This document shows, one piece after another, positions 9,655 through 16,840 of a DNA stretch of 64,000 nt. This stretch comes from an uncultured Gemmiger sp. Its GTDB lineage: Bacteria > Bacillota > Clostridia > Oscillospirales > Ruminococcaceae. Each line of letters starts with the position of its first letter. Positions within the stretch are counted from its first letter, which is position 1. The stretch lies in NCBI GenBank assembly GCA_944388135.1, contig CALXHP010000004.1, forward strand, positions 1 through 64,000. The letters run 5' to 3'. The position numbers and the translations under genes were made by a program. The notes below the pieces were generated by a model. The model worked only from the letters and a program-made list of their open reading frames with translations. It was not told the DNA's origin and did no database searches.

Positions 9655-10863
9655 TCAGCGCCCCAGACGATATTTGAAATCCCGGTAGCCGAACTGTACC
9701 AGCTCCCGGCAGGCGCCGTCGGCACCTCGGGTCCAGATGGCAGGCAGGGGCATGCCGTTGAAGGTATTGTTCTTGCAGGTGGTATAAATCGCCATGTCGC
9801 CGAACACCAGCAGGTCCCCGGGCCGGGGCACTGCGTCGAAGCCGTAGTCCCCGATCACGTCCCCCGCCAGGCAGGTGGGGCCCGCCAGCCGCACCGTACA
9901 GGGCTTTTCCCCCGGGTCGGCGGCAAAGAGGAGCGGCGGGCGGTAAGGCATTTCGATGACATCGGGCATATGGCAGGCGGCGCTGGCGTCCAGGATGGCC
10001 ACCGTGGTATCACCGTTTTGCACCACGTCCAGCACCCGGCTGAGAAGATACCCGGCGTTGAGGGCGCAGGCCTCCCCCGGTTCCAGGTAGACCGTCACCC
10101 CCCAGTCGGCCTGGGCCCGGGCGATGCACCGTTCCAGGGTGGCCAGGTCGTAGCCCGGCCGGGTGATATGGTGGCCGCCGCCGAAGTTGAGCCACTTCAT
10201 ATTGGGCAGCAGGTCGCCGAATTTCTCTGCCATCGCGTCCAGCGTCACCGCCAGGGCGTCGGCGTCCTGTTCACACAGCGTGTGGAAGTGCAGCCCGTCC
10301 AGCAGGTCCGGCAGGGCGGGATTTTCCGCCACCGCGGCGTCCCACTGGGCCCGGGTGGTGCCCAGACGGCTGCCGGGGGCACAGGGGTCATAGATGGCGT
10401 GGCCCTCCTGGGTGGAACATTCGGGGTTCACCCGCAGGCCCACACTCTTGCCCGCCGCCTTGGCCATAGGGCCGAACCTGGCCAGCTGGGCCGGGGAATT
10501 AAAGACGATATGGTCGGCCCACCGCAGCAGTTCCGCCATCTCGTCGTCGCGGTAGGCGGCACAGAAAACGTGGACTTCCTTACCGGGCATCTCCTCGGCG
10601 CCGAGACGGGCCTCATACAGGCCGCTGGCCTCGGTGCCCGCCAGGCAAGGCGCCAGCACCGGGTACAGATCATAGTTGCTGAACGCCTTCTGCGCCAGCA
10701 GCACTTTGCAGCCGGTGCGGGCGGCCAGCTCCCCCAGGATTTTGCCGTTGCGGGCCAGGGCCCCTTCATCCAGCAGGTAGCAGGGGGTGGGCAGGGCGGC
10801 GAAGTCCGCTGGCACCGTGCCGCCCAGGGCGGCAAAGGGCGGGCGGGTATCCGCGGCGGGCAT
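9655..10863 (-). CDS. nspC: Carboxynorspermidine/carboxyspermidine decarboxylase
   Basis: PLP enzyme of the alanine-racemase fold (fold III) that decarboxylates carboxyspermidine or carboxynorspermidine to the triamine. It begins MPAADTRPPFAAL. TPCYLLDEGALARN near residue 25 and the PLP lysine in LLAQKAFSNYDLYP match this family rather than DapF-type diaminopimelate decarboxylases. GGGHHITRPGYD and YLEPGEACALNAGYL are the phosphate- and substrate-binding segments. It has 402 residues. The start codon overlaps the previous stop (TGATG at 10865-10861), so it is coupled to the dehydrogenase gene that makes its substrate. Confidence 0.88.
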   Translation of the reverse strand: MPAADTRPPFAALGGTVPADFAALPTPCYLLDEGALARNGKILGELAARTGCKVLLAQKAFSNYDLYPVLAPCLAGTEASGLYEARLGAEEMPGKEVHVFCAAYRDDEMAELLRWADHIVFNSPAQLARFGPMAKAAGKSVGLRVNPECSTQEGHAIYDPCAPGSRLGTTRAQWDAAVAENPALPDLLDGLHFHTLCEQDADALAVTLDAMAEKFGDLLPNMKWLNFGGGHHITRPGYDLATLERCIARAQADWGVTVYLEPGEACALNAGYLLSRVLDVVQNGDTTVAILDASAACHMPDVIEMPYRPPLLFAADPGEKPCTVRLAGPTCLAGDVIGDYGFDAVPRPGDLLVFGDMAIYTTCKNNTFNGMPLPAIWTRGADGACRELVQFGYRDFKYRLGR

Positions 10864-12122
10864 CAGTCCACCAGCGCCGGGGCGCGGTTCTCGCTGCGGG
10901 GCAGGCCGTACTTGTCCAGGGCGTCCAGGAACGGGTCGGGATTGAACTCCTCCACGGTGTAGACGCCGGGCTTGGTCCACTGGCCGGTGAGCATCATCAG
11001 GGCGCCGCACATGGCGGGCACGCCGGTGGTGTAGCTGATGGCCTGGCTGCCCACTTCCTTATAGCATTCCTGGTGGTCGCAGACGTTATAAATGTAGTAG
11101 GTCTTGGGCTTGCCGTCCTTGGTGCCGGTGAAGATGCAGCCGATGTTGGTCTTGCCCTTGGTGCGGGGGCCCAGGCTGGCCGGGTCGGGCAGCAGGGCTT
11201 TCAGGAACTGGATGGGGACGATCTCCTGGCCGTTGTAGTTGATGGGGGTGGTGGAGAGCATGCCCACATCCTCCAGACAGCGCATATGGTCCAGGTAGCT
11301 CTGGCCAAAGGTCATGAAGAACCGGATGCGCTTGACGCCGGGGAAGTTCTTGCCCAGGGACTCGATCTCCTCGTGGTGGAGCAGGTACATGTCCTTCTCC
11401 CCCACCTGGTCGAAGTTGTATTCCCGCTTGATGCTCATGGCGGGCACTTCCACCCAGTGGCCGTTCTCCATATAGCTGCCGGGGGCGCTGACCTCCCGCA
11501 GGTTGATCTCGGGGTTGAAGTTGGTGGCGAAGGCATAGCCGTGGTCACCGCCGTTGCAGTCCAGGATGTCGATGGTGTCGATGGTGTCGAACTCGTGCTT
11601 GGCGGCGTAGGCGCAGTAGGCCTGGGTCACGCCCGGGTCAAAACCGCAGCCCAGCAGGGCGGTGAGTCCGGCATCCTCGAACTTTTTCTTGTAGGCCCAC
11701 TGCCAGGAGTAGTCGAAGTAGGCGGAGAAGCCCTCTTCCTTGCAGCGCTTCTCGTAGATGGCGCGCCATGCGGGGTCGTCGGTGTTTTCCGGCTCGTAGT
11801 TGGCGGTGTCCATATAGTTGACGCCGCAGGCCAGGCAGGCGTCCATGATGGTCAGGTCCTGGTAGGGCAGGGCGATGTTCATGACCAGGTCGGGCTGGTA
11901 AGATTTGATGAGGGCGATGAGCTCCTCCACGTTGTCGGCGTTTACCTGGGCGGTGGTGATCTTGGTTTTGGTGATGGGGGCCAGTTTTTCGGCCAGGGCG
12001 TCGCACTTGGACTTGGTGCGGCTGGCGATGCACAGCTCGGTGAAGACGTCGCTGACCTGGCAGCACTTCTGGATGGCGACACTGGCAACGCCGCCGCAGC
12101 CGATGACAAGAACTTTGCTCAT
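10863..12122 (-). CDS. Carboxynorspermidine/carboxyspermidine dehydrogenase (saccharopine dehydrogenase family)
   Basis: NAD(P)-dependent enzyme that reductively condenses putrescine (or diaminopropane) with aspartate semialdehyde. The N-terminal Rossmann fold begins VLVIGCGGVASVAIQKC, and the saccharopine-dehydrogenase C-terminal domain contains LGCGFDPGVTQAYCAYA. It has 419 residues, as in characterised CASDH enzymes. Start ATG at 12122 has AAGGAG nine bases upstream. Coupling with the decarboxylase gene makes the carboxy-triamine role much more likely than lysine catabolism. A 515-bp palindrome-rich gap separates it from speB. Confidence 0.88.
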   Translation of the reverse strand: MSKVLVIGCGGVASVAIQKCCQVSDVFTELCIASRTKSKCDALAEKLAPITKTKITTAQVNADNVEELIALIKSYQPDLVMNIALPYQDLTIMDACLACGVNYMDTANYEPENTDDPAWRAIYEKRCKEEGFSAYFDYSWQWAYKKKFEDAGLTALLGCGFDPGVTQAYCAYAAKHEFDTIDTIDILDCNGGDHGYAFATNFNPEINLREVSAPGSYMENGHWVEVPAMSIKREYNFDQVGEKDMYLLHHEEIESLGKNFPGVKRIRFFMTFGQSYLDHMRCLEDVGMLSTTPINYNGQEIVPIQFLKALLPDPASLGPRTKGKTNIGCIFTGTKDGKPKTYYIYNVCDHQECYKEVGSQAISYTTGVPAMCGALMMLTGQWTKPGVYTVEEFNPDPFLDALDKYGLPRSENRAPALVD

Positions 12123-12154
12123 GGTGATGACTCCTTTTTGTACGAAAATGTTTT

Positions 12155-12548
12155 GTTCCTTCTTTACAAAGAAGGAACCGAAGAAATTCCAAACAAAATA
12201 AAACGAACACTTTCGGGAATGTAACTCTTTCCCGGTCAGGGCCCGCCCGCGAAGGCGGGCGGGATCTCAGAACGGGAGCCCGGATGAGCTCACACGATAG
12301 GTACGGGCGGGAAACGGGGTCACGTAGGGCCGCTCAGGGTCCACGATGTTGGAGTCTCGGGCGACCACTTTGAAGCCCCGGGGTTTCTTAAGGGGTTCTC
12401 AAACCCCTTAAGCCGTGCCCCGCGCCTCGGAACGCGGCGCTTTTTGCCTGCGGGGCCATGCCCCGCAACCGCGCCCCAGGAACGCAGCGCGGTGCAAAAA
12501 CCAACGCAGCGCGTTGGTTCCGACATGCACGGCCCCGGAACCGGGGCC
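12155..12548. repeat. Cluster of palindromes in the speB-CASDH gap
   Basis: The 515-bp gap holds no convincing gene but at least six hairpins: GTTCCTTCTTT/AAAGAAGGAAC (12155-12178), CCCGCCCGC/GCGGGCGGG (12242-12263), CTTAAGGGGTT/AACCCCTTAAG (12387-12412), TGCGGGGC/GCCCCGCA (12449-12467), AACCAACG/CGTTGGTT (12499-12519) and GGCCCCGG/CCGGGGCC (12531-12548). None is followed by a clean U tract. A minus-strand frame ending near 12265 reads protein-like (DSNIVDPERPYVTPFPARTY) but has no ATG; it could be a small-ORF remnant or repeat. Confidence 0.6.
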
Positions 12549-12637
12549 ATTGGGAGGGCTGCTCAACTTGCTGCTATTGCAGGTCGCTCAAAAAGGAACA
12601 CCCCCAGGCCGCGCGCCCCTCCCGGGTCAGGCCGCCC

Positions 12638-13510
12638 TCAGACGCGGGGCCGGTTATGCACCAGCGCCAGCAGCAGTTCCCGCAGGGTCTTGCAGGCGGT
12701 GGCGGTGGAGACCCCGGTGGTGTCCAGGGTGGGGGCCAGCTCGTTCAGGTCTGCCCCCACGATGCGGGCCCGGGTCACGGTGCGGATGGCGTCCAGCAAT
12801 TGCAAAAAGCTGACGCCCCCCGCTTCCGGCGTGCCGGTGCCGGGGAAGGCCGAGGGGTCCAGGCAGTCCAGGTCGATGGTGAGATAGACCGGGACTTTGG
12901 TATCGCAGAGCCACTGGGTCAGCTCTCCCAGGCCGGTGAAATCAAAGCGGTGCATATCGGTGTGGCGGGCGGCAAACTCAAATTCTTCCCGGTCCCCGCT
13001 GCGGATGCAGAACTGGTGGATCCGGCCGTCCCCCAGGATGTCGTGGCAGCGGCGCAGCACACAGGCGTGGCTGAGCTGGGCCCCCAGGTAGTCGTCCCGC
13101 AGATCGGCGTGGGCGTCAAAGTGGACGATATGCAGTTCGGGGTAGCGGGCTACCACCGCCCGTACCGCCCCCAGGGTCACCAGGTGTTCGCCCCCCAGCA
13201 GCAGGGGAAATTTGCCATCCCGGAGGATCTCCGCCGCCCGGGACTCGATGTCCACCAGGGCGCTCTCGCTGCTGCCGAAGCAGAGTTCCAGATCGCCGCT
13301 GTCGAAGATCTCGCAGTCGGTGAGGTCGGTGTTCTGGTAGGGGCTGTAGGTCTCGATGCCGTAGCTTTCGTGGCGGATGGCCGCCGGGCCGAACCGGGCA
13401 CCGGGCCGGTAGCTGGTGGTGGAATCATAGGGTGCGCCGTACAGCACGATCTGGGCCGTGCGGTAGGCGCTGTCACACCCGATAAAGTTTTCAACATTGC
13501 GTGGCAGCAT
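12638..13510 (-). CDS. speB: Agmatinase / ureohydrolase SpeB
   Basis: Manganese enzyme of the arginase family, hydrolysing agmatine (or an aminopropyl-agmatine) to urea and the amine. Metal ligands are visible: GGEH, HFDAHADL and DLDCLDPS, with the family's SHACVLRRC segment between. It has 290 residues. I place the start at the ATG at 13510 (MLPRNVENFIG), whose A overlaps the speE stop in a TGATG. It is the third gene of speA-speE-speB. With SpeE directly upstream, the true substrate could be N1-aminopropylagmatine, as in Thermus. Confidence 0.9.
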   Translation of the reverse strand: MLPRNVENFIGCDSAYRTAQIVLYGAPYDSTTSYRPGARFGPAAIRHESYGIETYSPYQNTDLTDCEIFDSGDLELCFGSSESALVDIESRAAEILRDGKFPLLLGGEHLVTLGAVRAVVARYPELHIVHFDAHADLRDDYLGAQLSHACVLRRCHDILGDGRIHQFCIRSGDREEFEFAARHTDMHRFDFTGLGELTQWLCDTKVPVYLTIDLDCLDPSAFPGTGTPEAGGVSFLQLLDAIRTVTRARIVGADLNELAPTLDTTGVSTATACKTLRELLLALVHNRPRV

Positions 13511-14367
13511 CAACGGTCCTCCACTTCCCGCAGCATTTCCTCCAGAAATGCCGGCAGATAGAATGCACCGACGTGGAGCCGGGTGGTATAGTAGCGGGTG
13601 CGCATGTTCAGCGCGTTCCAGGCCGCGGCGTCCAGATCGTCGATGGGATGATATTTTTTACTGGCAAAGCCGAAGAGCCAGTAGCCCGCCGCAAAGGTGG
13701 GGATGTGGGCCTGGTACACCTTGCTGATGGGGAAGGTGCTGGCGATCCGCTTATGGCTGCGCTGCATGGCGTTGGCGTCCTCGGCATAGAAGGGGCTGCC
13801 CTGCTGGTTGACCATGATGCCGTCCTCTTTCAGGGCGTTGAAGCAGTTGCCGTAAAACTCCCGGGTGAAGAGCCCCTCCGACGGGCCGAAGGGGTCGGAG
13901 GAATCCACGATGATCAGGTCGTACTCCTCCTCGCACCGGCGGATGAACTTGAGGGCGTTCTCAAAGTAGATGTGTACCCGGCGGTCGTCCATCCGGCAGG
14001 CGTTGCCCGGCAGATAGGCCCGGCAGGCTTCCACCACCATGGGGTCCATCTCCACCAGGTCGATCCGCTCCACCCGGTCATACCGGGTCAGCTCCCGCAC
14101 CACGCCGCCGTCCCCGGCGCCGATGACCAGAATATCCTTGGCCTGGCGGTGTACCGACATGGGCACATGGGTGATCATCTCGTCATAGATGAACTCGTCC
14201 CGCTCGGTAAGCATCACGTTGCCGTCCAGGGTGAGCACCCGGCCGAATTCCGGCGTCTCGAAGATGTCGATGCGCTGGTAGTCGCTCTGCTTGGAGTAAA
14301 GCTGCCGGTTCACCCGGATGCTGTGCTTCACATCGGGGGTGTGAAATTCCGAAAACCACATTTCCAT
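13510..14367 (-). CDS. speE: Spermidine synthase family aminopropyltransferase
   Basis: Transfers aminopropyl from decarboxylated S-adenosylmethionine to a diamine. Rossmann-like methyltransferase fold with the nucleotide motif VIGAGDGGVVREL, the acidic ribose ligand VEMDP and the catalytic-loop motif IIVDSSDPFGP. The N-terminal beta domain has LTLDGNVMLTERDEFIYDEM. It has 285 residues, the usual size. Sixteen bases separate it from speA and AAGGAGG precedes the ATG. No S-adenosylmethionine decarboxylase (speD) is in this window, so its amino donor must be made elsewhere or its role differs. Confidence 0.9.
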   Translation of the reverse strand: MEMWFSEFHTPDVKHSIRVNRQLYSKQSDYQRIDIFETPEFGRVLTLDGNVMLTERDEFIYDEMITHVPMSVHRQAKDILVIGAGDGGVVRELTRYDRVERIDLVEMDPMVVEACRAYLPGNACRMDDRRVHIYFENALKFIRRCEEEYDLIIVDSSDPFGPSEGLFTREFYGNCFNALKEDGIMVNQQGSPFYAEDANAMQRSHKRIASTFPISKVYQAHIPTFAAGYWLFGFASKKYHPIDDLDAAAWNALNMRTRYYTTRLHVGAFYLPAFLEEMLREVEDR

Positions 14368-14383: not shown

Positions 14384-15850
14384 TTAAGCCAGCACGTTCA
14401 GGCGCAGGATGTCGGGGTCTTCCGGTCCCGTCATGCTGCAGCCCTTGGCCTTGGCATATTCGATGTAATCGAGGATTTCCCCGGTGATCCGCTCGCCGGG
14501 GGCCAGGATGGGAATGCCCGGGGGATAGCACATGACGAACTCGCTGCAGACTCTCCCCTCGGTCTCCCGCAAAGGCAGACTGATCTTGTCGGCGTAGAAG
14601 GCCTGCTGGGGGCTGGCCACCACCTCGGGGTCGATGTATTCCTGGTTCAAAAGGCCGGTGCCGTCGGTGTGGTAGCGCCGCTTGATCTCCGCCAGGGCGC
14701 TGACCAGCCGCTCCAGTTCCTGGGGGCGGTCCCCCATGGAAAGGTAGGCCAGGATGTTGCCGATGTCGCCGAACTCGATCTGGATGTCGTACTCATCCCG
14801 CAGGATGTCGTAGACCTCGATGCCCGCCAGACCGATGTCCCGGGTATGGATGCTCAGCTTGGTGGTGTCGAAGTCAAAGATGGAATCCCCGTTGCAGAGT
14901 TCCTTGCCGAAGGCGTAATACCCGCCGATGGCGTTGATCTCCTCCCGGGCGTACTCCGCCATGTCGGCCACCTGGTGGAAGACCTGGCGGCCCCGCAGGG
15001 CCAGGTTTCGCCGGGAAATATCCAGGCTGGACATGAGCAGGTAGCTGCCCGAGGTGGTCTGGGTCAGGTTGATGATCTGCCGCACATAGCCCGCGTGGAC
15101 CTTGGGTCCGCAGAGGAGCAGGCTGGACTGGGTCAGGCTGCCGCCGCTCTTGTGCATGGACACGGCAGCCATATCGGCCCCGGCGGCCATGGCGGAAACC
15201 GGCAGTCCGCCGCCGAAATAGAAGTGGGTGCCGTGGGCTTCATCAGCCAGGCAGAGCATGCCGGCGTCGTGGGCCATCCGCACGATGGCCCGCAGATCGC
15301 TGCAGATGCCGTAGTAGGTGGGGTTGTTCACCAGCACCGCCACGGCGTTGGGATGCTCGGCGATGGCCTTGGCCACCTGTTCCCGGCGCATCCCCAGGGA
15401 GATGCCCAGCCGCTGGTCCACCTCGGGGTTGACATAGACCGGCACGGCGCCGCAGAGCACCAGGGCGTTGAGGACGCTGCGGTGGACGTTGCGGGGCAGG
15501 ATGATCTCATCCCCCCGCTTGCAGGCGGTGAGGACCATGCTCTGCACCGAGCTGGTGGTGCCCCCCACCATAAGGAAGGCGTGGGCGGCGCCGAAGGCAT
15601 CGGCGGCCAGTTCCTCGGCCTCCCGGATGACCGACACCGGATGGCAGAGATTGTCCAGGGGTTTCATACTGTTCACGTCCACCCCCACGCACTGCTGGCC
15701 CAGAAAGGCCGTCAGTTCGGGGTTGCCCCGGCCCCGTTTGTGGCCGGGCACGTCGAAAGGCACCACCCGCATACGGCGGAAGTTTTCCAGCGCCTCGTGG
15801 ATCGGCGCGCGGCGCTGGTCCAGACGGGTGCGGTTCCCATTCCCGTTCAT
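14384..15850 (-). CDS. speA: Arginine/lysine/ornithine decarboxylase, PLP fold I
   Basis: First enzyme of the cluster, most probably arginine decarboxylase giving agmatine, since an agmatinase follows. PLP lysine K234 lies in SMHKSGGSLTQSS. The cofactor-binding DEAHGTHFYF (203-212) and the N-terminal VPGHKRGRG motif are typical of the short Bacillus-type SpeA/Cad family. It has 488 residues. I chose the ATG at 15850, preceded by GGAGG at ideal spacing, instead of an upstream ATG at 15901 that lies inside a terminator hairpin. Expression appears to depend on read-through of that terminator. Confidence 0.88.
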   Translation of the reverse strand: MNGNGNRTRLDQRRAPIHEALENFRRMRVVPFDVPGHKRGRGNPELTAFLGQQCVGVDVNSMKPLDNLCHPVSVIREAEELAADAFGAAHAFLMVGGTTSSVQSMVLTACKRGDEIILPRNVHRSVLNALVLCGAVPVYVNPEVDQRLGISLGMRREQVAKAIAEHPNAVAVLVNNPTYYGICSDLRAIVRMAHDAGMLCLADEAHGTHFYFGGGLPVSAMAAGADMAAVSMHKSGGSLTQSSLLLCGPKVHAGYVRQIINLTQTTSGSYLLMSSLDISRRNLALRGRQVFHQVADMAEYAREEINAIGGYYAFGKELCNGDSIFDFDTTKLSIHTRDIGLAGIEVYDILRDEYDIQIEFGDIGNILAYLSMGDRPQELERLVSALAEIKRRYHTDGTGLLNQEYIDPEVVASPQQAFYADKISLPLRETEGRVCSEFVMCYPPGIPILAPGERITGEILDYIEYAKAKGCSMTGPEDPDILRLNVLA

Positions 15851-15879
15851 GTTTTCCTCCGTCCCGTGGTTCCCCTGGC

Positions 15880-15923
15880 AAACAAAAAACGCAAGCCGCA
15901 TCCAAAAGGTGCAGACTTGCGTT
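15880..15923 (-). terminator. Intrinsic terminator in the speA leader
   Basis: On the minus strand AACGCAAG (15923-15916) pairs with CTTGCGTT (15895-15888), extended by CTGCA/TGCGG inside, then six T. It ends about 30 nt before the speA start, with no promoter between. The upstream CTTTGCG (15949-15943) could pair with the left arm and act as an antiterminator. It is either an attenuator or the 3' end of the upstream structured RNA. Confidence 0.75.
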
Positions 15924-16021
15924 CGGTTTCGTCCATTTTCGCCGCAAAGCGCCCTGTCCCCGGGCAGTATGAGGGCAAGGTGAGGGCATGTTTCGGGCGT
16001 ATCGTGTTCAGAGTCTCTATA

Positions 16022-16257
16022 GCAATTCTACGCTTTACTACTCTTATTGACCGTTTCACAAGTCTGCGTGGAGGCCACGCAATTTCTGGTTATCAAAGGA
16101 ACCAACTTATAAAATTTGAGCTTTTAACTCAATCAATAAGGCAACCAATGTTGCCGATCGGCAGTGGACCCGGCTGTCCGTATGGCCTTAGCCCCTGATG
16201 GGCGGTCCCAGGTAAATTGCTTTGAAAAACTCCTGCACGATTCGTCTTTCAAAATCG
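16022..16257 (-). ncRNA. Candidate structured RNA upstream of speA
   Basis: No gene fits here, but the minus-strand RNA folds densely. Long-range closing helices are GCAATT (16220-16215) with AATTGC (16027-16022) and CTTATTGA (16140-16133) with TCAATAAG (16050-16043). Inside are GGACC/GGTCC with nested GGCT/AGCC (16208-16166), GGCAAC-ATTG-GTTGCC (16155-16140), TTGAG/CTCAA (16132-16116), TGGTT/AACCA (16104-16087) and GCGTGG-CCT-CCACGC (16080-16066). It follows a consensus promoter. Size (about 220-240 nt) and host group resemble the raiA RNA motif, which I cannot verify. A riboswitch-like speA leader is the alternative. Confidence 0.6.
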
Positions 16258-16262
16258 TGGTT

Positions 16263-16291
16263 ATCGTACCATATCGTCGGGAAAATGTCAA
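16263..16291 (-). promoter_or_regulatory. Promoter of the structured RNA / speA leader
   Basis: TTGACA (16291-16286), 17-nt spacer, TACGAT (16268-16263). It gives a transcript start near 16257 and a leader of about 400 nt before speA. Confidence 0.7.
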
Positions 16292-16317
16292 TGAAATTTT
16301 TGGTAAAATTCCCGTAC

Positions 16318-16354
16318 AACAAAAAAGGGGGCCACCCCTTGCGGGATGGCCCCC
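16318..16354 (-). terminator. Terminator of hsp20
   Basis: Minus-strand GGGGGCCA (16354-16347) and TGGCCCCC (16334-16327) form an 8-bp stem with an inner CCC/GGG, followed by six T. It separates hsp20 transcription from the speA leader. Confidence 0.85.
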
Positions 16355-16369
16355 TTTTGGAGGTAAAGA

Positions 16370-16840
16370 TTACAGAATCTCGATCTGAGTGGGCTGCTTC
16401 TCCGGCAGTTTCTTGGCTTCCGCCTTGGGCAGGTTCAGCTTCAGGATACCGTCCTCAAAGCTGGCCTTCACATCCTCGGGCTTGAGCTCTTCGCCCACAT
16501 AGAAGCTGCGGGCGCAGGAACCGGTGTACCGCTCCTGACGGATATAGTGGCCGTCGTTATCCTTCTCATCATGGTCAGCGCTGCGGTTGGCCGTGATGGT
16601 CAGGTAGCCGTTCTGCAGATCCAGCTTCACGTCCTCCTTCTTGAAGCCGGGCAGGTCCACGAAAACGTCATAGCCGTTTTCGGTCTCCCGCACATCGGTC
16701 TTCATCACATTGGCACTCCGTTTGCCAAAAGCACGGCGGGGATCAGCCGCCTGCATCATGCGGTCAAAGTCGCGATCCCAATCATTCTGGAACCAATCGT
16801 CCAGCAAAGCATCATGAAACATATAAGGCACCATCATCAT
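16370..16840 (-). CDS. Hsp20/alpha-crystallin small heat-shock protein
   Basis: ATP-independent holdase chaperone in the cytoplasm. The alpha-crystallin domain runs from about residue 43 (VMKTDVRETENGYDVFVDLPGFKKEDVKLDL) to about 140 and ends in the family's DGILKLNLPK motif. The C-terminal TQIEIL supplies the I-x-I type assembly motif. It has 156 residues. Three consecutive ATG codons start the protein; the first, at 16840, is best spaced from GGAGGAA. The gene is monocistronic, with a CIRCE operator over its promoter and its own terminator. Confidence 0.93.
   Translation of the reverse strand: MMMVPYMFHDALLDDWFQNDWDRDFDRMMQAADPRRAFGKRSANVMKTDVRETENGYDVFVDLPGFKKEDVKLDLQNGYLTITANRSADHDEKDNDGHYIRQERYTGSCARSFYVGEELKPEDVKASFEDGILKLNLPKAEAKKLPEKQPTQIEIL

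Follow-up and report, generated by a model that had tools for sequence, protein, structure and literature searches.

A conserved leader RNA of polyamine genes, filed in part as a Streptococcus sRNA, is a probable polyamine-sensing transcription attenuator

Introduction

Polyamines are important metabolites in most bacteria. A validated and rare variant of the SAM-I riboswitch responds to one of them, spermidine (Salvail et al. 2023, PMC10853860). According to that report, this spermidine riboswitch is an OFF switch that acts through a terminator and an antiterminator before ldcC, speE, and speB, a mechanism like the one proposed here, and its authors regarded further polyamine riboswitch classes as seemingly certain to await discovery. 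The odc1, potE, and speF RNA motifs are likewise leader RNAs before polyamine genes, according to two papers (PMC8632094, PMC11477304), but they belong to other groups (alphaproteobacteria, Veillonella) and have other structures; a speF-like report in C. difficile concerns a site before another gene.

The closest sequence family has been cataloged under a different function. In Streptococcus pneumoniae, the RNA F59 maps to the interval flanked by SP0915 and SP0916, with SP0916 on the same strand (PMC3395615), and a 2025 list of putative sRNAs assigns srn235/F59/Spd_sr49 a span of 869478–869804 (327 nt; PMC12323649). A lung fitness of 0.05 is listed for srn235 and SN20 (PMC3395615), and a lung entry for F59/srn235/SN20 also appears in PMC4387999. 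By its name, this RNA (F59/SN20/srn235/Spd_sr49) is the founder of Rfam family RF02440 (SpF59_sRNA), and it stands directly before SP0916, on the same strand. It has been treated as an sRNA, and its likeness to the RNA described below is drawn here from name and position. SP0916 is a gene that we take to encode a lysine/arginine decarboxylase.

Rfam also labels RF02440 "ldcC RNA," so the link to the gene had been noticed by someone. A description of this RNA as a polyamine switch was not found in the literature searched, a scope outside which preprints and most subscription journals fall, and the main text of PMC11109978 contains none of the terms polyamine, ldcC, spermidine, speD, decarboxylase, and SpF59. 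Here we describe the RNA in the leader of a speA operon and in relatives of that leader across many genomes.

Results

Layout of the speA Leader

The window is the whole 64-kb stretch of DNA that was analyzed, and the features under study lie on its minus strand (Table 1). The leader unit runs from a promoter through a structured RNA, an intrinsic terminator, and a ribosome-binding site into speA. Much of this layout had been read from the letters in the original prediction and was recovered here: a consensus promoter at 16291–16263, a leader without an ORF of note in the window's ORF list, an intrinsic terminator (stem and U run) ending ~30 nt ahead of the speA ATG (15850), and an interval between terminator and ATG in which a sequence scan found no promoter-like site. 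The terminator hairpin with its flanks reaches −21.7 kcal/mol; a simple terminator scan of the window missed it. The leader as a whole (16256–15851) has a minimum free energy (MFE) of −136.5 kcal/mol (z = −3.26), a value equaled by 1 of 100 dinucleotide shuffles.

Promoter and lack of coding potential extend to the relatives. A promoter matching at least 10 of 12 consensus positions occurs within the 110-nt upstream stretch in 78 of 93 loci (93 of the 94 nonredundant loci defined below), compared with 3.3% of shuffles, and the end of the −10 element lies a median of 76 nt from the core. Across 170 nt of the conserved region, the three reading frames are open in only 2, 3, and 6 of 94 sequences; a conserved leader peptide was rejected on this count, at most 6 of 94 sequences being open whichever frame is taken.

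A small heat shock-like gene (16840–16370, minus strand) lies upstream of the leader promoter, which is located behind that gene's strong terminator-like hairpin (16358–16323). Matches to ncr982, HIV_FE, suhB, and BjrC68 near 16386–16313 are below cut-off and fall on this upstream gene's terminator; they were set aside.

Table 1. Features of the speA leader and operon in the window
Feature	Position	Strand	Basis
Sigma-70-type leader promoter, TTGACA-17-TACGAT	16263..16291	-	Sequence scan; 10/12 consensus, TG ahead of second hexamer
P0 5' arm UUUUGAAA, partner 16228-16221; loop contains P1 5' strand	16247..16254	-	Strand-swap test
P1 5' strand AUCGUGCAGGAGU, partner 16018-16001, long-range closing helix	16229..16241	-	Strand-swap test
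P0 3' arm UUUUCAAA	16221..16228	-	Strand-swap test
P2 5' strand GCAAUU, partner 16027-16022	16215..16220	-	Strand-swap test
RF02440 match: P3 (16208-16204/16170-16166), P4 (16203-16200/16194-16191), core GGCCAUACGGACAGCCGGGUC	16158..16208	-	Rfam, covariation
P5 hairpin GGCAAC..GUUGCC	16140..16155	-	Covariation
P6 5' strand UUAUUGA, partner 16050-16044	16133..16139	-	Near-invariant, little covariation
P7 hairpin GAGU..GCUC	16118..16130	-	Two-sided change in 4/4 pairs
P8 5' strand AUAAGUU, partner 16064-16058	16104..16110	-	Near-invariant
P9 hairpin GGUU..AACC	16088..16103	-	Comparative fold
P10 hairpin UGCGUGG..CCACGCA, sequence varies across species	16065..16081	-	Alignment, comparative fold
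Switching strand GCAGACUUGUG, P10 end and P8', putative antiterminator 5' half	16057..16067	-	Complementarity, own-vs-swapped test
Conserved UCAAUAAGAG, P6 3' strand and bases after	16041..16050	-	Alignment
P2 3' strand AAUUGC	16022..16027	-	Strand-swap test
P1 3' strand AGAGACUCUGAACACGAU	16001..16018	-	Strand-swap test
CGCAAGUCUGC, putative antiterminator 3' half and terminator 5' arm	15911..15921	-	Complementarity, own-vs-swapped test
Intrinsic terminator, stem 15922-15889 and U run	15883..15922	-	Hairpin energy, family-wide control
speA ribosome-binding site GGAGG	15856..15860	-	Sequence
speA, Orn/Lys/Arg decarboxylase, proposed regulated gene	14384..15850	-	Pfam OKR_DC_1, first 414 aa of longer ORF (L001)
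speE, spermidine synthase	13510..14367	-	TIGR00417, above cut-off
speB, agmatinase	12638..13513	-	TIGR01230, above cut-off
Carboxynorspermidine synthase-like dehydrogenase	10863..12122	-	NF043000, 403 bits, below cut-off 800
nspC, carboxynorspermidine decarboxylase-like	9655..10863	-	TIGR01047, 389 bits, below cut-off 409

The RNA Extends Far Beyond Its Rfam Model

The leader matches RF02440 over the full 54-nt model (positions 1–54) with 66.4 bits, above the curated gathering cut-off of 37.2; this is the sole gathering-level Rfam match in the whole window. SAM-I and raiA (the Rfam set includes a raiA model) both went unmatched, whether at gathering score across the window or with E allowed to reach 5 across 15700–16450, and no Rfam match to odc1, potE, or speF was obtained in the window. 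The leader thus differs from the spermidine riboswitch, whose SAM-I aptamer architecture it lacks.

The 54-nt model spans only P3, P4, and the core, for which we propose inner pairs 16187–16185/16174–16172, out of an element of ~240 nt. In a 92-sequence alignment, near-invariant sequence continues far past the model, through UUAUUGAUUGAG, UUUUAUAAGUUGG, and ACUUGUGAAACGGUCAAUAAGAGUAGUAAAAG up to GCUAUAUAGACUCUG. RF02440 is filed as an sRNA gene, whereas the window element is followed by an expression platform and sits in a cis-regulatory context.

Relatives Precede Genes of Polyamine Synthesis and Import

Downstream genes were called as the earliest of four query genes 100–1100 nt after the core (tblastn). 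Because some loci share a genome or contig (L014 and L033 look alike), the tally was restricted to the 164 nonidentical RNAs from 168 loci; near-identical copies remain in it. The gene following these RNAs is speD in 67, speA in 41, carboxynorspermidine synthase in 24, and potA in 22. One of these polyamine genes therefore follows the RNA in 154 of the 156 testable distinct RNAs, 8 with ≤238 nt of sequence after the core start having been left out. Among the 94 nonredundant RNAs, the corresponding counts are 38 speD, 28 speA, 8 carboxynorspermidine synthase, and 19 potA, with 1 unassigned. HMMs run on the first ORF of 138 loci, a further 9 being without one, assigned 54 to SAM decarboxylase, 37 to Orn/Lys/Arg decarboxylase, 23 to PotA/ABC, and 21 to the saccharopine dehydrogenase type, so that these four classes account for 135 of 138 if no protein is counted twice.

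The two exceptions are divergent RF02440-like RNAs, L162 (39.8 bits; 1514 on) and L164 (34.9 bits, below cut-off; 1505 on), which precede lipoprotein-like ORFs with a C39-peptidase-like domain.

In the window itself, the operon (9655–14367) brings together speE and agmatinase with a carboxynorspermidine synthase relative and an NspC relative. A speD of the TIGR03331 type was not found in the window's genome, which is 83% complete. The gene set would presumably fit a carboxyaminopropylagmatine-type route to spermidine.

Distribution

Of 197 genomes drawn from the window's family, 49 carry RF02440 (48 with a score over cut-off), with one match per genome; it also occurs in 35 of 291 genomes of the class and in 11 of 299 of the phylum. 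Each draw contains the window's own genome. These counts are lower bounds because stricter filters applied to many genomes and variants were missed. SAM-I-type spermidine variants, by comparison, are called rare in their description (PMC10853860). Scanning species genomes for the 21-nt core returned at least 118 stretches. Among the matches listed are Paenibacillus, Bacillus, Neobacillus, Lederbergia, Kurthia, Faecalibacterium, Gemmiger, Blautia, Ruminococcus, Acidaminococcus, and Phascolarctobacterium, along with single metagenome bins labeled Spirochaetes and Synergistaceae, which could be misbinned. Some genomes of the window's family carry close speA orthologues without an RF02440-type RNA.

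For comparative analysis, one locus without the exact core (L015) was removed from 148, leaving 147. A further 17 loci lacked a recognizable 3' end, partly at contig ends and partly in altered RNAs such as L034, L036, and L040; their removal, with that of 2 loci with scant flank, gave 128 aptamer sequences, which were reduced by similarity to 94. Alignment A1 holds 92 of these, L064 and L124 having been omitted for large insertions, and was built without fitting to structure.

Helices of the Conserved Fold Covary

The feature is real and conserved. The original prediction had named covariation among homologues as a check on its helices, and the homologues do covary. Over the 45 pairs of the hand-drawn fold P2–P9, 308 alignment cells are changed on both sides, compared with 98.8 (SD 13.2) in shuffles, and the covariation score is 0.243 versus 0.121 (SD 0.004), neither value being reached in 500 shuffles. 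In the 92 sequences, 92.8% of cells pair and 23 of 45 pairs show two-sided change; all five measures of this fold lie above every one of the 500 shuffles. Sliding the partner by 1–3 columns lowered pairing to 28–47% and the covariation score from 0.243 to 0.03–0.09, with no clear drop in the number of pairs with two-sided change (16–24 slid, 23 unslid). The top ten of all scored column pairs fall in P3, P4, and P5, two of those in P5 with the register off by one. P6 and P8 are nearly invariant, and covariation therefore tells little about them. RNAalifold applied to A1 recovered no more than P3, P4, P7, a core hairpin of three pairs, and a weak hairpin on the 3' side.

At the first of the core's inner pairs, which joins the G of GGC to the final C of GCC, G–C stands in 186 cases, A–U in 11, G–U in 2, and another combination in 6, counted over all loci collected, duplicates included. 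The A–U cases trace to six distinct copies (L159, L163, L167, L169, L170, and L175).

The 5' strands of P0, P1, and P2 shift position among species. Because MAFFT fails to align these shifting strands, P0 and P1 were assessed by a strand-swap test, applied also to P2, in which each locus's 5' strand is paired with 3' strands from other loci. With kinship ignored, own strands paired better than swapped ones for P0 (−7.3 vs. −5.9, SD 0.21; 0/3000; 86 of the 94 nonredundant sequences), P1 (−14.5 vs. −11.2, SD 0.26; 0/2000; 94 sequences), and P2 (−4.6 vs. −3.2, SD 0.16; 0/2000; 94 sequences). P1 and P2 correspond to the two long-range closing pairs claimed originally. The P1 5' strand lies within the P0 loop, and the closing region is therefore a predicted pseudoknot.

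A Conserved Strand Is Matched to the Terminator

Terminator-like hairpins follow the RNA throughout the family. Within 260 nt after the RNA, a hairpin of −17 kcal/mol or lower occurs in 107 of 127 loci, compared with 4.7% of shuffles, and at a threshold of −14 kcal/mol in 123 of 127, compared with 10.6%; the 127 are drawn from the 147 loci and have recognizable anchors.

In the window, the strand GCAGACUUGUG can pair with CGCAAGUCUGC over 11 pairs (−17.1 kcal/mol), a candidate antiterminator that is mutually exclusive with both P8 and the terminator. A run of at least 11 pairs (G–U allowed) against the terminator arm arose in 4 of 500 shuffled leaders. The original prediction had proposed CTTTGCG with CGCAAG as antiterminator; its idea of an alternative pairing stands, in that a conserved one exists, but the pairing it named amounts to 5 pairs at −5.2 kcal/mol and was dropped in favor of the P10'/P8' pairing, which is better and backed by relatives.

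Across 89 of the 94 nonredundant loci, the most stable terminator of each locus was chosen blind to complementarity and its 5' arm was paired with the P10'/P8' strand: Own arms gave −11.6 kcal/mol and swapped arms −9.6 (SD 0.23; 0/5000, kinship ignored), although in at least half of these loci at least 23 of the 88 foreign arms pair better than the locus's own. In a sliding scan along the RNA, which used one permutation for the swapped arms, own arms clearly beat swapped ones only from about −4 to +8 nt around P8'. Own and swapped arms separate around P8' only, and one strand of the fold is therefore specifically matched to the terminator. For 54 of 89 loci the best-pairing window is no more than 6 nt from P8', versus 35 of 89 for one swapped-arm set; a coarser scan placed it near P8' in 48 of 89.

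Computed energies, with the pseudoknot excluded, describe how the two folds compete in the window. For the leader to 15880, the MFE is −129.8 kcal/mol, the comparative fold with the terminator −129.3, and the antiterminator fold −114.5. For the transcript to 15908, where only the terminator 5' arm has been made, the aptamer fold (−108.1), the antiterminator fold (−108.7), and the unconstrained best (−109.5 kcal/mol) are nearly equal, so a modest binding energy could decide between them. The MFE structure of the leader to 15851 (−136.5) is a different long-range fold, and its centroid resembles the comparative fold.

Variant Leaders Retain the 3' Domain

Some relatives carry related leaders with altered 5' cores. 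In L169 and L170 (the window's genus) and in L175 (another genus), RF02440 is absent and speA is preceded by a related leader with the same 3' domain and the core changed to AAAGCUC(A/G)UCGGAC(A/G)GGGCUGG. This variant core occurs in 3 of 197 genomes of the window's family and may be a second specificity class. The 3' domain is mostly retained in L173, L179, and L205 and is reduced to its last part in L180, and all four have other 5' cores. The start of speD can be seen downstream of the RNA in three of them (L179, L180, and L205), and L173 has a speD-like sequence ahead of speA. A 19-nt 3' motif used as query matched 43 of 197 genomes, with a chance match within coding sequence in G087, and added four (G151, G015, G135, and G098) to those bearing RF02440.

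Two further loci with close speA orthologues (L171, L172) have a different short leader ending, by eye, in a terminator-like hairpin; it is possibly another control element.

Discussion

We consider it likely that the speA leader is a transcription attenuator in the form of an OFF riboswitch that senses a polyamine, probably spermidine; ligand binding is something we infer from the genes downstream. The attenuator part of this reading is well supported by sequence, and for the RNA as a whole the likeliest interpretation is that it represents a new class of polyamine riboswitch. Features expected of riboswitches in general were found: a conserved structure backed by covariation, placement before the genes of one pathway in many species (154/156), and, from sequence and computed energies, an expression platform with mutually exclusive folds. 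When polyamine is low, the switching strand GCAGACUUGUG would capture the terminator arm, and polymerase would read into speA, speE, speB, and the next two genes. Polyamine binding would stabilize the folded domain (P8/P10) and free the arm, allowing the terminator to form; with abundant polyamine, transcription would then end ahead of the operon. Because the downstream genes make or import polyamines, their end product, probably spermidine, is the simplest candidate signal. The original prediction had offered an attenuator or riboswitch as one of two readings, and it is this one that gained strong support, from the gene placement together with the conserved alternative pairing.

Other readings of the same data deserve weight to different degrees. 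The antiterminator and terminator could be as described here and yet respond, without a ligand pocket in the RNA, to a protein, to the ribosome, or to polyamines acting generally on transcription or the folding of RNA; arm matching and gene context are compatible with any sensor, and the spermidine riboswitch authors caution that polyamines bind RNA broadly (PMC10853860). We regard this as unlikely, since the invariant core of ~20 nt and the near-invariant 3' segments resemble a binding pocket and the relatives (94 sequences) lack a conserved leader peptide. A riboswitch of the same architecture might instead bind putrescine, agmatine, cadaverine, decarboxylated SAM, or an arginine/lysine precursor, or might act as an ON switch. 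Different substrates of speA, speD, and carboxynorspermidine synthase, and the existence of variant cores, would favor another metabolite, but PotA-type genes indicate that spermidine/putrescine is imported, and spermidine-type products are common to both biosynthetic routes, so that an end product is the simplest common signal. The folded state frees the terminator ahead of genes for synthesis and import, which suits an OFF rather than an ON switch, and we give this whole set of variants a somewhat lower chance than a sensor of the first kind.

An independent ncRNA, whose terminator read-through feeds the next gene, was the other reading in the original prediction. Taken as a trans-acting sRNA whose read-through is incidental, it agrees with the Rfam type of RF02440 and with two papers, of 2012 and 2025, that list F59/srn235/Spd_sr49 among putative sRNAs (PMC3395615, PMC12323649). 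It is improbable given how strictly the RNA is placed before polyamine genes, in four gene contexts, given the complementarity of a strand of the RNA to its own terminator, and given the position of F59 itself next to SP0916 on the same strand (PMC3395615). The filing of RF02440 as a trans-acting sRNA gene is a label in Rfam, and the genomic context argues for cis action. The related suggestion of a raiA-like RNA, which drew on size and host only, has a negligible chance, because the Rfam search returned RF02440 and no raiA match. Ranked, the possible rivals to a polyamine riboswitch thus run from a protein sensor through another metabolite of the pathway to a trans role of the short RNA.

Beyond the window, the polyamine riboswitch proposed here may be one form of a more general device. 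The 3' domain may be its more general part and the RF02440 core one among several sensor modules; much of the 3' domain persists in a few relatives whose 5' core is a different one, and the sensor may on that account be exchangeable. Taken to its full extent, this suggests a new, widespread class of pseudoknotted polyamine riboswitches of ~240 nt, so far filed as a fragment of a Streptococcus sRNA, in which the 3' switching domain stays constant and the 5' sensor core can be exchanged, so that the polyamine sensed may differ from one relative to another or a second input may be read. We advance this broader proposal tentatively, with close to even confidence but somewhat below it.

If the element binds a polyamine, the pneumococcal sRNA would be recast as a cis-acting leader, and the lung fitness of 0.05 listed for srn235/SN20 could reflect a cis effect on the adjacent SP0916 (PMC3395615). 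Control by this RNA would then be a frequent means of regulating polyamine synthesis and uptake among gut and soil Firmicutes.
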